Shown one piece after another: positions 54,562 through 59,958 of a stretch of DNA of 64,000 nucleotides. Source of the stretch: an uncultured Polaribacter sp. (GTDB taxonomy: Bacteria > Bacteroidota > Bacteroidia > Flavobacteriales > Flavobacteriaceae); contig NZ_CANNFH010000001.1 in assembly GCF_947503875.1 (NCBI RefSeq), forward strand, positions 434,001 to 498,000, written 5' to 3'. Numbering within the stretch: position 1 is the first letter of the stretch; every line of letters starts with the position of its first letter. Below the pieces are notes generated by a model, which worked only from the letters and a program-made list of their open reading frames with translations, did not search any database and was not told where the DNA came from. The translations under genes were made by a program, and so were the position numbers.

Positions 54562-55509
54562 ATGTCAGACACTATAGAAAAAATAAAATGTTTAATTATT
54601 GGTTCTGGACCTGCAGGTTATACTGCCGCAATTTATGCAGCAAGAGCAGATATGAGACCAATAATGTATACAGGTATGCAAATGGGCGGTCAATTAACTA
54701 CCACAACAGAAGTAGATAATTTTCCTGGCTATAAAGATGGTACAGAAGGTCCTAAAATGATGGACGATTTAAAACATCAAGCAGAACGTTTTGGTACAGA
54801 AGTACGTTTTGGTATGGTTACTAAAGTAGAATTAAGCGAAAAAGTTGGTGGTATTCATAAAGTTGTGGTAGATGAATCTAAGCATATAGAAGCAGAAACT
54901 ATAATTATTTCTACAGGAGCTACTGCAAAATATTTAGGTTTAGAAAGTGAGCAGCGTTTAATTGGTGGTGGCGTTTCTGCCTGTGCAACTTGCGATGGTT
55001 TCTTTTATAAAGGACAAGACGTTGTAGTAGTTGGTGCAGGAGATACAGCAGCAGAAGAAGCAACATATTTGGCTAATATTTGTAGTAAAGTTACTATGTT
55101 GGTACGTAAAGATTACATGAGAGCCTCAAAAGCCATGCAACATAGAGTAAATAAAACTAAAAATATTACCGTTTTATACAACACAGAAATAGATGAGGTT
55201 TTAGGTAGTAATGTGGTAGAAGGTGTTAGAGCCATTAACAATCAGACCAAAGAAACACAAGAAATTCCTGTAACTGGTGTATTTATTGCCATTGGTCATA
55301 AACCAAATTCAGATTTATTTAAAGGAGTTTTAGATATGGATGAAACCGGTTATTTAATAACTGAAGGCAAAACAACTAAAACAAATTTACCAGGAGTTTT
55401 TGCAGCAGGCGATATACAAGACAAAGACTACAGGCAAGCAGTAACAGCAGCAGGTACAGGTTGTATGGCAGCCTTAGATGCAGAACGTTATTTAGGCGCT
55501 TTAGAATAA
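54562..55509 (+). CDS. trxB: Thioredoxin-disulfide reductase
   Basis: GSGPAGYTAAIYAARA; CATCDGFFYKG; GAGDTAAEEA; AAGDIQDKDYRQA. Confidence 0.96.
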   Translation: MSDTIEKIKCLIIGSGPAGYTAAIYAARADMRPIMYTGMQMGGQLTTTTEVDNFPGYKDGTEGPKMMDDLKHQAERFGTEVRFGMVTKVELSEKVGGIHKVVVDESKHIEAETIIISTGATAKYLGLESEQRLIGGGVSACATCDGFFYKGQDVVVVGAGDTAAEEATYLANICSKVTMLVRKDYMRASKAMQHRVNKTKNITVLYNTEIDEVLGSNVVEGVRAINNQTKETQEIPVTGVFIAIGHKPNSDLFKGVLDMDETGYLITEGKTTKTNLPGVFAAGDIQDKDYRQAVTAAGTGCMAALDAERYLGALE

Positions 55510-55536: not shown

Positions 55537-55571
55537 AAGGGATTTCAGCAATGGAATCTCTTTTTTTTTTT
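55537..55571 (+). terminator. Intrinsic terminator of trxB
   Basis: GGGATTTCA-gcaa-TGGAATCTC stem (with G-U pairs) followed by a long T-run. Confidence 0.75.
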
Positions 55572-55575
55572 GAAG

Positions 55576-55677
55576 CTATTTCCAGCTTTCCACTATATCT
55601 TTTTACTAGCTCCAGAATTTCACTCAGGAGCTAGTAAAAAGGATGCCGTTTCAATCTGGGCTAAGCGTTTTTGCCAA
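55576..55677. repeat. Intergenic repeat, copy B, with 14-bp perfect central stem (TTTTTACTAGCTCC/GGAGCTAGTAAAAA)
   Basis: Shares CTATTTCCAGCTTTC and ATCTGGG.TAA...TTGCCA with 2184-2272; stem arms 55600-55613 and 55627-55640. Confidence 0.8.
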
Positions 55678-55834
55678 CTTCATAGCCTATTAAAACGTAT
55701 GTAATATTTAATGCAGAAGTGTTCTTTTTTAGATTTTAAAAACAGCAAATTAAAAGAGAAAAAAGGTATATTTACAAAATAATAACTATACCTTATGATT
55801 GTATGTAAAACTTACTGGATATCGTTAATGAAAG

Positions 55835-55861
55835 TTGTTATATAACGAGTTAGGTGCAAGC
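55835..55861. repeat. Left boundary of cassette 1: TTGTTATATAACGA-GTTAGGTGCAAGC
   Basis: GTTAGGTGCA (55849-55858) is an exact inverted match to 57475-57484; TTGTTATAT (55835-55843) is an exact inverted match to ATATAACAA at 59396-59404. Confidence 0.8.
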
Positions 55862-55879
55862 AAAAACAAACGACAGTAA

Positions 55880-57469
55880 ATGAAAACAACTTTCCTCGGA
55901 AACGGACTCGATTCAGGTAAAAAAAATAATGTCGGAAAACAACTTGCTAAATCTTTTGAAAGTAAAGATTATAAGAAATTTTATGGTTTTGTTGCTTTCG
56001 CAACTCTTTCAGGATTTAAACCTTTTATATCAAAGCTTGAAATAGCGAAATCAAATTACGAAGAAATCAAATTCTTTATTGGTATTGACCATAAAATTAC
56101 TAGCGAAGATGCACTTGAATTTTTATTGAAAGAAAATATAGAAACTTATATCTATTACGATGAAGATAATCATCGAAAAATTTACCACCCAAAATTATTC
56201 TTGTTTGAAGGTAACAATACTTCAAGAATAATCATAGGATCCTCAAACCTTACTCATCAAGCACTTTATTCCAATGTAGAAGCATCAATCCAATTAGACC
56301 TTGAATTAGATGACTTAAATACACTTACAGAAATTAAAGACTATTATTCAAGTCTTTTAGACCTTTCTTCACCTAACTTAAAATTACTTTCAAACGAGTA
56401 TTTAGAACTTTTAAAAAAACAAGGTCTACTATCTAATGGAGATAATGATGAAGAAGAGAATGACGATGATGACCATAGAACTAAAAAGAAATATGAATAT
56501 GACAAAAAGTTTACTGAAAGTGATAAAGAAAAATTTAATACAATATTAGAGAGATATCTTTTATATAAACAAACTAAAAGACCTGATGGAATAGTAAGTA
56601 AACACGCAAAAGACAGAGAATTATTTAGATGGTATCAAAAAATGCACGCTTTATACAATCAAGATACAAATTCACTTCCTTTTGACTATTTCGAAAGACT
56701 ATTAGAAGCTGATTTTCCTTTTGATGGTATAGGTCGCAAAAGAAAACAATTACTTAAATGGAAAGAAGATTTTCAAAAAGTTCTTGACTACAAGAACAAA
56801 GTTGACCTAGATAAAAAATACACATACGTACCTCAATTTAAGAATAAATCGAATGAATATTATGAAGTTGGTTTATGGTGTGCTCAACAAAAACAGAGAA
56901 GAAAAGGAAACAAGAATTATGGAATGGAATGGAGTCAATTTGAGGAAGACAAAATGAATTCTATAAATTTTGTTTGGGATGTTTCTACTTTAGGTTTCAG
57001 AACAACAGAAGATAAATGGTCAGATACTTATGTAGAATTAGAAGATTATTACTCAAACAAAAAAAACTACAAAACAGTTCCATCTCAAAAAACATACATT
57101 GGTCATTGGTTAAGCGACCAAATGTCATTTAAAACAAGACAAGACAGAGAAAACAGAAATGATTTATTGAGTAGTGAAAAAGAAAAAATGTTAGGAAAAC
57201 TTCTTAATGAAAATGGTGTAGAATGGGAATGGAGAAAACAAAAAGAAAGAGAAAGTATTCAAAGTAAAATTAAAAGTTGGCAAATTGTAGAAAAACTAAA
57301 AAACGAAGGAAAAATAAAAGAGTTTAGAGAGCAAAATCCAAAAGTCTTAAAAAAATACAGAGATGATGTGGCTCAATTAAGAAGTCATACAAAAAGGTGG
57401 AATAATGAAAAAAATAAATGGAAATACGAACTTGTTGACAAAGTAGGATTTCCATATAAGAAAGAATAA
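55880..57469 (+). CDS. PLD-like nuclease-domain protein with C-terminal helicase-associated-type repeats (candidate defence/restriction nuclease)
   Basis: HKD-type motif IYHPKLFLFEGNNTSRIIIGSSNLTHQAL; repeats resembling helicase-associated domains: EVGLWCAQQKQRRKG...SINFVWD and YIGHWLSDQMSFKTRQ...NGVEWEW; no helicase motor. Confidence 0.7.
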   Translation: MKTTFLGNGLDSGKKNNVGKQLAKSFESKDYKKFYGFVAFATLSGFKPFISKLEIAKSNYEEIKFFIGIDHKITSEDALEFLLKENIETYIYYDEDNHRKIYHPKLFLFEGNNTSRIIIGSSNLTHQALYSNVEASIQLDLELDDLNTLTEIKDYYSSLLDLSSPNLKLLSNEYLELLKKQGLLSNGDNDEEENDDDDHRTKKKYEYDKKFTESDKEKFNTILERYLLYKQTKRPDGIVSKHAKDRELFRWYQKMHALYNQDTNSLPFDYFERLLEADFPFDGIGRKRKQLLKWKEDFQKVLDYKNKVDLDKKYTYVPQFKNKSNEYYEVGLWCAQQKQRRKGNKNYGMEWSQFEEDKMNSINFVWDVSTLGFRTTEDKWSDTYVELEDYYSNKKNYKTVPSQKTYIGHWLSDQMSFKTRQDRENRNDLLSSEKEKMLGKLLNENGVEWEWRKQKERESIQSKIKSWQIVEKLKNEGKIKEFREQNPKVLKKYRDDVAQLRSHTKRWNNEKNKWKYELVDKVGFPYKKE

Positions 57470-57471
57470 GT

Positions 57472-57614
57472 GCCTGCACCTAACAGCGTATAAATTTTAT
57501 TGCTATTTCTGGCTTATTTGGGAAAGGTTTCGCACACTTTTAATTCAGTAAATATTTACTAACTTTACGCTAAACCAACGCAACAAATCTTATACAATCA
57601 CGTTGTAGCTAATT
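57472..57614. repeat. attC-like nested palindromic junction between cassette 1 and cassette 2
   Basis: TGCACCTAAC (57475-57484) and GTTGTAGCTA (57602-57611) edges; inner arms GTATAAATTTTATTGC (57488-57503) and GCAACAAATCTTATAC (57580-57595) are 13/16 complementary; central perfect palindrome AGTAAATATTTACT (57547-57560). Confidence 0.75.
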
Positions 57615-57622
57615 TGAGAAAA

Positions 57623-58312
57623 ATGAAAAAAATAATTCATAACATAGTGACCTTACTTATTGGAATAGTCGGACTTTTTGGCGGATTAATTTGGGGTTAT
57701 TATTCAAAATGGGAATTTGAACCTATTATTTTATCTGCAATATCATTCTTAGAAATAATTGCATATTTTACTCTTCCAAAAGAAAAGAAAAAAGAAAAAG
57801 AAATTTCCAATAAATCAAAAAATACAAATAAGCAGAAAGTTGAAGTTACCGTAAATAATTTTACTTCAAATAATAATGATGTTCCATCAATCGAAAAAAA
57901 GAACAGAAATGCTTTAATAGATTCAAAAAAAACTAAAATTGGAATTCTTTTTATAGACGATGATAAAAAATTTAATATAGTAAAAATATTGAAAGATAGT
58001 AATTGGAAAAACACAAAAACTGTTACAGATATAAAAAGTCTAGATGTCAGTTATGTGCAAAATTCTGAAATAATATTTGTTGATATAAATGGTGTTGGAA
58101 AAATATTAAACCTAGAATATGAAGGACTTGATTTGGCATTAATGCTAAAACAAAAATACCCAGAAAAGAAAATAATTATTTATTCTGCGAATAAAAATAG
58201 TAACTCATTTCATAAAGCTTGGGATATTATTGATGGTAGACTTGAAAAAAGTGCTTTACCATACCAATTCCAAAACTTAGTAGAAAATTACAGTCTAGAA
58301 TACTATAAGTAA
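57623..58312 (+). CDS. Membrane-anchored response-regulator receiver-like protein
   Basis: N-terminal TMs (GIVGLFGGLIWGYY), then LFIDDDKKF, EIIFVDING, IIYSANK, LEKSALP (acidic pair, phospho-Asp, Ser, Lys-Pro positions of REC). Confidence 0.7.
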   Translation: MKKIIHNIVTLLIGIVGLFGGLIWGYYSKWEFEPIILSAISFLEIIAYFTLPKEKKKEKEISNKSKNTNKQKVEVTVNNFTSNNNDVPSIEKKNRNALIDSKKTKIGILFIDDDKKFNIVKILKDSNWKNTKTVTDIKSLDVSYVQNSEIIFVDINGVGKILNLEYEGLDLALMLKQKYPEKKIIIYSANKNSNSFHKAWDIIDGRLEKSALPYQFQNLVENYSLEYYK

Positions 58313-58313
58313 T

Positions 58314-59372
58314 ATGGAAAAAACTTACTATTATGTAAAGCAATTAAATGGTGACTACCTATTTGACAACTTTCCAATTGAATTAAAGTATTTAGTAATC
58401 AATTTTAAAGAATGTAGAAATACAATTAACATTTCTATAGGTGGAAAAGAATTAAAAGCAAGAATAGGACTAAAAAAAAGCTCAGAATTCCAAGTTTATG
58501 TTTTAACAACTGAAAGTAAATTTATAAACAGATTTAAATTTTTTAAAGAATTGGTAAACTCAAGTTCCAGTTTTATCAAACCACTTTTGAGCTTACAGCA
58601 AGATTTAAAAGATAAACACGAAAAAATAGTAGAAGAATTCATACATAATGCAACATCTCTAAATACTTACAGTATTCAAGATTTATTTTTTCTAATTCCC
58701 CAAGACCGTTTAATAGGTAACATCAATAAACAGAAAGATATAATAAGACAAATAATAAAGGAGAAACCTAACGTAACAGTTGATACTTTATTAAAACAAA
58801 TTAAATATAGTTTAGCAACAAAAGTTGAATTTTCAGTATTTGAAAGAACTCTTAAAAACACAAGTGTTCTTCAAAAAACAGAACATTCTATTAGACCAGT
58901 GGTTCTATCAATTCTACAAATATTTATCTCGGATTTTGATAAAAAAAATATAGAGGTACATCTTGGTGGCACAGAAAAAGTTCTTGAAATAGATTTTGAC
59001 TCTTTGTTTGTTTCTTTATATTATATTTTTGATAATGGAGTGAAATATTGTTGCCCTAGAACAGATTTTAAGATTCGTTTTTCCGAAGAAAAAGATTCTT
59101 TTGATATTATTATTACTATGGTATCTATAGAAATAAAAGAATCTGAAAGAAACTTAATTACAGAAAGAAATTATCGTTCAAAAATAGCCAGAAAAATTAA
59201 CGAAAAAGGATTAGGAATTGGTATGTATAGAATAATTAAAACATTGAAATTTAATAATGCTAAATTAGAAATCAATCCAAGAGCATTTCCGATGACAAAA
59301 GATAATAAAGGAATAAAATATGAAGGAAACGAATTTAGAGTTGTTTTCTGTAAACAAAATAAATGGATATAA
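58314..59372 (+). CDS. GHKL ATPase / histidine-kinase-like protein with degenerate G1 region
   Basis: SLYYIFDNGVKYC (N-box), EKGLGIGMYRIIKTL (G2-like); VEEFIHNATSLN possible DHp His; no recognisable DxGxG. Confidence 0.7.
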   Translation: MEKTYYYVKQLNGDYLFDNFPIELKYLVINFKECRNTINISIGGKELKARIGLKKSSEFQVYVLTTESKFINRFKFFKELVNSSSSFIKPLLSLQQDLKDKHEKIVEEFIHNATSLNTYSIQDLFFLIPQDRLIGNINKQKDIIRQIIKEKPNVTVDTLLKQIKYSLATKVEFSVFERTLKNTSVLQKTEHSIRPVVLSILQIFISDFDKKNIEVHLGGTEKVLEIDFDSLFVSLYYIFDNGVKYCCPRTDFKIRFSEEKDSFDIIITMVSIEIKESERNLITERNYRSKIARKINEKGLGIGMYRIIKTLKFNNAKLEINPRAFPMTKDNKGIKYEGNEFRVVFCKQNKWI

Positions 59373-59380
59373 TAAAAAAC

Positions 59381-59405
59381 TAGCTACAACAACGCATATA
59401 ACAAA
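59381..59405. repeat. Right boundary of cassette 2: TAGCTACAAC-AACGCATATAACAAA
   Basis: Exact 10-bp inverted match to 57602-57611; ATATAACAA inverted match to 55835-55843. Confidence 0.8.
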
Positions 59406-59438
59406 CAGCATTCCTCGTTTTTTTGAATACAAAACAAA

Positions 59439-59487: not shown

Positions 59488-59958
59488 TTAAACTTCTACA
59501 GAAGCTTTCATAGATTTTCTATAGGTAAACTTGTTAAAAATATTTCTTTTACCAAAGTTGTTCATCGATTTTGCGTTTAAAAATTTGCCAAAAAGTATTT
59601 TGCTAACGCCAAAGTATTCGTATTTATTACCATCTGTAAACGTAACTTCTAACAACATACTTTTATGATGCCAATCTGCAACTTGAAATTCTGTAATGGT
59701 TTTTTTGTACGCTTCTAAATTTGCCGCTTTTGTTTCTGGAGCAATACTTACTAAAAAATGGTAACCGTCAATAATTTCTGTACTTTTTTCTTCAGCCTCC
59801 AATTTCTTAGTTTCATCTTGAAATTTATCTGGATGCCATTCTTTCACTAGTTTTCTATAAGAGGTTTTTAAATCTTTTAAATTAATATCACCTTCTATAG
59901 AAAACAATTTTTTATATTGCTTTATGCGCTTCATTCTTAGTTTTTTAAATGCGCACAA
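59488..59958 (-). CDS. J-domain protein with C-terminal KTSC-like domain
   Basis: LKTSYRKLVKEWHPDKFQDE (HPD); MLLEVTFTDGNKYEYFGVSKILFGKFLNAKSMNNFGKRN. Confidence 0.85.
   Translation of the reverse strand: MCAFKKLRMKRIKQYKKLFSIEGDINLKDLKTSYRKLVKEWHPDKFQDETKKLEAEEKSTEIIDGYHFLVSIAPETKAANLEAYKKTITEFQVADWHHKSMLLEVTFTDGNKYEYFGVSKILFGKFLNAKSMNNFGKRNIFNKFTYRKSMKASVEV

Follow-up and report, generated by a model that had tools for sequence, protein, structure and literature searches.

We examined a stretch of 64,000 nucleotides (the window) from the genome of an uncultured Polaribacter sp. of the family Flavobacteriaceae (assembly GCF_947503875.1, contig NZ_CANNFH010000001.1, positions 434,001 to 498,000), in which two units lie in tandem between a trxB and a dnaJ gene. 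These units are very probably gene cassettes of an integron-type system of Flavobacteriaceae that employs a tyrosine recombinase. Cassette topology, a conserved hairpin, an attI site, linkage of arrays to an integrase, an empty insertion site and shared cassettes are all apparent from comparison of the sequences. A sequence-only reading of the window had proposed tandem gene cassettes, possibly of an undescribed system, and our analysis supports that proposal in part.

Cassette Edges and Their Recurrence

Each unit is bracketed by its own inverted pair of edges, GTTAGGTGCAAGC and GCCTGCACCTAAC for cassette 1 and GTTGTAGCTAATT and AACTAGCTACAAC for cassette 2 (Table 1). As the sequence-only reading had described, both pairs are complementary at 12 of 13 positions and differ from full complementarity only at position 11 (left A, right C), and the outer sequences TTGTTATAT (55835) and ATATAACAA (59396) are mutually inverted as well. 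What it overlooked is a hairpin element of about 122 bp at 57482-57604, together with a truncated element 3' of the second unit. This attC-type site is present in nine full-length copies in the genome holding the window (G000; C numbers are contigs and L numbers the DNA stretches examined). Seven of these are in a tandem array of seven cassettes on another contig (G000:C6:20129-26792, equivalent to L055 8130-14793), and a lone cassette lies in L074. The element between cassettes measures 122-125 bp, and the copy at 57482-57604 is 95% and 90% identical to those at C6:23955 and C6:26670. Nine cassettes of this genome were tested for edge complementarity, which reaches 12/13 in eight and 11/13 in one, the mismatch usually being A/C at position 11. 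Because the same edges recur in the C6 array and in L074, those of the window are not a product of chance.

Enrichment of complementary ends, which had been suggested as a check, is evident around 80 integrase loci in named genomes (Polaribacter, Winogradskyella, Lutibacter, Maribacter, Tenacibaculum, Algibacter, Psychroserpens, and others). The 313 kb downstream of the integrase contain 133 edge pairs mismatched at position 11 only (128 of them A/C), compared with 9 in the 595 kb on its upstream side; three Markov controls yielded 7. The suggested search for empty sites was also borne out: in all 10 relatives with the adjoining genes, the trxB-dnaJ gap is 82-201 bp long and free of cassettes. 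One relative (L210) has a different gene between trxB and dnaJ. A homologue of cassette 2 lies inside an attC array of another genus (L266), with 76% identity for gene B; its edges are GTTGTGGCTA and TAGCCACAAC, those of the window being GTTGTAGCTA and TAGCTACAAC, so that one base is changed in both arms. Homologues of cassette 1 adjoin attC sites in three other genera.

The C6 array includes a HigB/HigA toxin-antitoxin cassette (L055 12143-12738), followed by a cassette with no open reading frame (ORF) of at least 60 residues (L055 12858-13401), as in Vibrio superintegrons. Solitary or decayed attC copies were seen elsewhere in the genome (C5:289594, C5:290461, C7:26748, C4:291308, and C4:232709), some of them adjoining single accessory genes.

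When the circular cassette of an integron is opened at G|TT, its own R box is split, and the half that remains at the 5' end is complementary to the R'' box lying downstream of the cassette's gene. Cassette-specific complementary edges thus follow from ordinary integron topology and are not the departure from attC that the sequence-only reading took them for.

Structure of the attC-Type Site

The nine copies yield a consensus hairpin on the bottom strand. A covariance model built from copies of the site, including that at 57482-57604 (model R1), matches 74 of 80 genomes of the genus and 172 of 221 genomes of the family. In 150 matches from the named loci of Flavobacteriaceae, standard pairs occupy 97.2% of pair cells, and 13 of 17 pairs vary on both sides. 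The covariation score is 0.447, compared with 0.141 for shuffled alignments and at most 0.108 for slid structures, values to which two caveats apply, in that the alignment had been fitted to the structure of the model itself and in that kinship of the sequences inflates such scores. The crossover triplet AAC/GTT bounds the element almost invariably (AAC in 148 and GTT in 149 of the 150 aligned sites). The site at 57482-57604 folds better on the bottom strand (-21.3 kcal/mol) than on the top strand (-16.3 kcal/mol). Sites were also reconstituted as they would stand in the circle, with the attC joined to the left end of the cassette it belongs to, and in 8/8 of these the bottom strand was the more stable.

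The A/C at position 11 corresponds to a G.T pair on the bottom strand and to an A.C mismatch on the top strand, and two pairs of the L stem are nearly always G.T. Extrahelical bases are absent from the L stem in 129 of 150 sites, while 16 sites have one, in the same column. We infer that the G.T pairs mark the strand in place of the extrahelical bases of classical attC. Complementarity of the arms extends to position 14 (81%). The R box does not follow RYYYAAC/GTTRRRY, given that GTTRRRY occurs in only 12 of 179 distinct edges. The sequence-only reading called the units integron-like yet unlike classical attC, but an attC-type hairpin is present. The true departures from classical integrons concern the integrase, which is not IntI, lacks the I2 domain and reads in the direction of its array, and the site, whose R box is not RYYYAAC and has a fixed G.T and whose stem mostly contains no extrahelical bases.

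Searching Rfam with the element returned no match, nor did a search of phage DNA with the attC. The pattern AACNRCGYATA alone does not discriminate (24 matches genome-wide and 34 in the reversed control), although it was this pattern search that revealed the repeated element.

The Integrase and Its Linkage to Arrays and attI

Arrays are headed by a tyrosine recombinase of about 390 residues (range about 385-410; for example L084, L080, and L085), read in the same direction as the cassettes. At the 80 loci, 169 of 170 attC matches are on the downstream side of the integrase, and a single strand carries them all (p = 8e-77). As a repeat array would lead one to expect, contigs end within 2 kb of the integrase on the downstream side in 38 loci, compared with 1 on the upstream side. 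The attI, ATATAACCC|GTT, follows the integrase (1191135-1192364) in the closed genome G054, and after it come about 103 attC sites, which all have one orientation and span about 111 kb (duplicates from overlapping stretches were removed by hand). Within this array there is a 14-kb gap free of attC (G054:C1:1214000-1228500, about 4500-19000 of L296), which is probably an insertion. Co-occurrence of a tyrosine recombinase with the sites, another suggested check, also held. Counts read by hand from 221 family genomes give 128 with both integrase and attC, 44 with attC only, 11 with integrase only, and 38 with neither (odds ratio 10, p = 6e-11).

A conserved site of about 60 bp, attI, adjoins the integrase gene. 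Its motif [AG]TATAA..[AC]G|TT was found 3' of the integrase stop codon in 60 of 80 loci, in most of them 39-60 bp past the stop, and a matrix was built from these 60 sites (consensus TTATCCGGAAA...GATAAA..GTTATATTTGT..GATATAACAAG|TT). The C6 array has a full attI (matrix score 61.1, training median 60.2) behind an integrase C-terminus and an IS110 transposase. The left border of the window scores 1.6, the highest of 1384 GTT sites on the strand (the next is -11.8), and its core scores 16.2 compared with 7.4 for the next. By eye the core appears to belong to a complete attI, an assignment that was rejected in view of the range of 28-78 for full sites. Judged by this matrix, the left border is a half attI-like site consisting of the proximal half only.

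The absence of an integrase noted by the sequence-only reading holds beside the two cassettes and not for the genome, which encodes an intact copy at G000:C3:359797-360954 (L078), adjoining a ychF-like GTPase gene. This copy may act in trans. At the C6 array, only about 15 C-terminal codons of an integrase remain (..TDKQSKNVLLSRKF*), and the IS110-family transposase lies directly upstream of the full attI (G000:C6:18992-20129, L055 6993-8130). The C6 array seems to be an integron that lost its integrase.

The Integrase Is Not IntI

A unique additional domain (I2) is given as the hallmark of IntI in a passage of PMC4792948 that refers to Messier and Roy (2001). The flavobacterial integrases score 206-220 bits against TIGR02249, below the cut-off of 265. 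At E <= 0.001 this model also matches Xer proteins, including those of control genomes, hence cut-offs and geometry were used. The distance between the GKG box and HxLRH could be measured in 14 flavobacterial sequences and is 57-58 in all of them, compared with 100 in 11/11 IntI and 66 in 4/4 Xer, which means that the IntI insert of about 42 residues is absent. Alignment to IntI structure 2a3v breaks exactly at the I2 insert. The catalytic residues are invariant and are also complete in the C3 copy of the window genome. The family forms a single clade (SH-aLRT 99) apart from IntI (100) and Xer (100). Both it and IntI stand apart from XerC/D. Several other recombinases that have no insert are placed closer to IntI (support 94, in a quick tree with long branches). 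They include recombinases in L057 (G093), L278 (G204), and L276 (G165); that in L057 is followed by a cassette-like edge, GTTGTATGTAATT, and these are possibly a second such platform. A search of 99 relatives, including 60 from this genus, detected no IntI above the cut-off; among 297 genomes of the phylum, 84 encode one, none of them from this family.

The N-terminal region of about 75 residues is predicted to adopt a beta-beta-alpha-beta-beta-alpha-beta fold (pLDDT 86). Its top Foldseek match is the HARP domain of SMARCAL1 (4o66; E 0.08, probability 0.85, non-significant), and HARP PF07443 is matched by 4 of 31 members (best E 0.0064, below significance); profile support is weak. The predicted fold is possibly HARP-like. 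The full-length model has a pTM of 0.51 and its domain arrangement was left unused. Against NF040815 (recomb_XerA_Arch, cut-off 220) the integrases score 218-228 bits. The nearest NCBIfam model is named "site-specific tyrosine recombinase/integron integrase", and current annotation therefore hints at a relation to integrons.

Contents of the Window

The features of the two cassettes and their neighbors are given in Table 1. The gene pair of cassette 2 is a candidate PDC-M43 phage-defense system. The L'-R' half of the cassette 2 attC is absent downstream and model R1 has no match at 59388-59409; with its attC truncated, this cassette can probably no longer be excised. An intergenic palindromic repeat (55570-55700, arms 55599-55616 and 55624-55641), similar to DNA beside G000:C5:100696, looks like a REP-type Bacteroidetes repeat.

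Table 1. Features of the trxB-dnaJ region, in window coordinates.
Feature	Position	Strand	Basis or remark
trxB, left chromosomal neighbor	54562..55509	+	ORF
attI-like core, ATATAACGAG|TT	55840..55851	+	putative cut between 55849 and 55850
Left edge (R' arm) of cassette 1	55849..55861	+	complementary to 57472-57484
Cassette 1 (TT...attC...G)	55850..57602	+	edges plus attC
Cassette 1 gene, PLD-like domain and helicase-associated (HA) domain, 529 aa	55880..57469	+	PF13091 7.5e-8, PF03457 5.6e-7
Right edge (R'' arm) of cassette 1, GCCTGCACCTAAC	57472..57484	+	
Cassette 1 attC-type site	57482..57604	-	bottom-strand hairpin; 141 bits to model R1
Left edge (R' arm) of cassette 2, GTTGTAGCTAATT	57602..57614	+	homologous cassette in L266
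Cassette 2 gene A, receiver-like, PADLOC PDC-M43A	57623..58312	+	PDLC04646 2.7e-65
Cassette 2 gene B, HATPase-like, PADLOC PDC-M43B	58314..59372	+	PDLC04647 6.8e-100
Right edge (R'' arm) of cassette 2, AACTAGCTACAAC	59378..59390	+	compensatory change in both arms of the homologous cassette in L266
Truncated attC of cassette 2, R''-L'' half only (AACAACGCATATAACAAACAGC)	59388..59409	+	
dnaJ/KTSC gene, right chromosomal neighbor	59488..59934	-	PF00226, PF13619

Proposed Mechanism and Alternatives

We propose that the recombinase of about 390 residues (here G000:C3:359797-360954) would catalyze the cassette reaction by binding the single-stranded attC folded as a bottom-strand hairpin. The parts of this hairpin would be an R arm of 13-14 bp with the fixed G.T, a spacer of about 5/2 unpaired nt, an L stem of 17 bp that includes conserved G.T pairs, and a variable loop. 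Cutting at G|TT, the enzyme would insert the cassette at the attI just 3' of its own gene (TTATCC[CG]G...TATATTTG...ATATAACNAG|TT), and the incoming cassette would bring half of its own R box as the new 5' end, which would explain why the edges are both complementary and cassette-specific. For the window pair, insertion would have taken place between trxB and dnaJ, at a site that only partly resembles attI and probably with the enzyme acting in trans; truncation of the last attC would be a later event.

Several observations weigh against this reading. All of the evidence is comparative and recombination was not observed; no gain or loss of a single cassette was seen at the strain level; and 44 of the 221 family genomes have attC matches without an integrase at the threshold used. 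The C3 integrase has neither a clear attI nor an array beside it, the window array is on another contig and has only half an attI, and the covariation scores carry the inflation noted above.

Could the cassettes instead be classical ones, in clusters of attC sites lacking an integrase (CALIN), moved by an ordinary IntI from elsewhere, with the flavobacterial recombinase incidental? The shared attC anatomy would fit, as would the canonical IntI of 84/297 phylum genomes and an assay in which IntI1 recombined the attC of a Polaribacter phage (PMC9892861). However, no IntI above the cut-off is present in the 99 relatives or in the family's genomes in the phylum listing, GTTRRRY is rare among the edges, and in many genera it is the other recombinase that is found where the arrays begin with attI, oriented as they are, all of which makes this explanation quite improbable. 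Even less credible, to the point of being nearly negligible, is that the repeats are structural or regulatory DNA between genes, such as terminators or RNA elements. Every element does trail an ORF and can form a hairpin, but the complementarity joins two cassette ends 0.4-2 kb apart through co-varying, cassette-specific sequence, Rfam has no match, and relatives have an empty site.

A different proposal concerns the window genome alone, namely that it holds the decayed remnant of a former integron that is now inactive there, and this is compatible with our explanation for the family. The last integrase codons beside the IS110 element at C6, the lack of a clear attI at C3, and the truncated second attC of the window all point that way, whereas the integrase at C3 is intact, retains every catalytic residue and might work in trans, and relatives have complete platforms. 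We regard local inactivity as a serious, if somewhat doubtful, possibility.

Judged on the whole of the sequence evidence, the Flavobacteriaceae cassette system appears to function in the manner of an integron. By the three features tested (integrase domain, R box, and extrahelical bases, as read from sequence), it is not a member of the IntI integrons. Whether it is a second, separately assembled integron class in Bacteroidota is close to an even question, leaning slightly toward no. Such a class would have a Xer-like recombinase reading folded single-stranded attC through a HARP-like domain and G.T-marked hairpins, which would replace the I2 domain and the extrahelical bases.

IntI, with its additional domain, is regarded as indispensable to integrons. 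The Flavobacteriaceae appear to have a widespread gene-capture system whose recombinase is without this domain thought essential, and standard surveys seem to have missed it. Using IntegronFinder, earlier surveys of Bacteroidetes reported only In0 and later one integron in Salinibacter (PMC9024848), and none was found in a Tenacibaculum genome (PMC10013915). In the open-licence PubMed Central literature searched, which excludes preprints, we found no comparable system, and novelty is provisional to that extent. If the mechanism is true, a gene-capture platform invisible to current tools is, or once was, present in most genera of Flavobacteriaceae, some species having about a hundred cassettes with candidate defense and toxin-antitoxin genes among them. 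The system would also offer a natural comparison when asking how recombination of folded single-stranded DNA arose in a Xer-like enzyme.

Comparison With Known Systems

The flavobacterial system shares much with the sedentary chromosomal integrons (superintegrons) of the Vibrio type: an integrase gene with an adjoining attI, tandem cassettes of about one ORF in one orientation, attC hairpins conserved within a genome with the AAC/GTT triplet and a better-folding bottom strand, toxin-antitoxin and ORF-less cassettes, and about 103 sites in one array. Unlike IntI, its integrase forms its own clade, has no I2 domain of about 42 residues and has an extra N-terminal region of about 90 residues. The integrase is co-oriented with the cassettes, the R box is not RYYYAAC, and the attC has a fixed G.T at arm position 11 and, in most cases, no extrahelical bases in the L stem. 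In having no integrase beside them, the window pair and the C6 array resemble CALIN or single attC sites; they differ in that a likely cognate integrase, one that escapes IntI detection, is elsewhere in the genome and in that the sites are without the classical R-box consensus. Like cassettes inserted at attG, the window pair occupies a partial site far from the integrase that is empty in relatives, yet its left border retains an attI-like core and the enzyme is another one. Finally, the closest solved structures to the integrase (4a8e and 5hxy) and its match to NF040815 connect it with XerA and XerC-XerD, from which it is set apart by a clade separate from XerC/D of the same order, by an extra N-terminal domain, and by its linkage to attI and cassette arrays.

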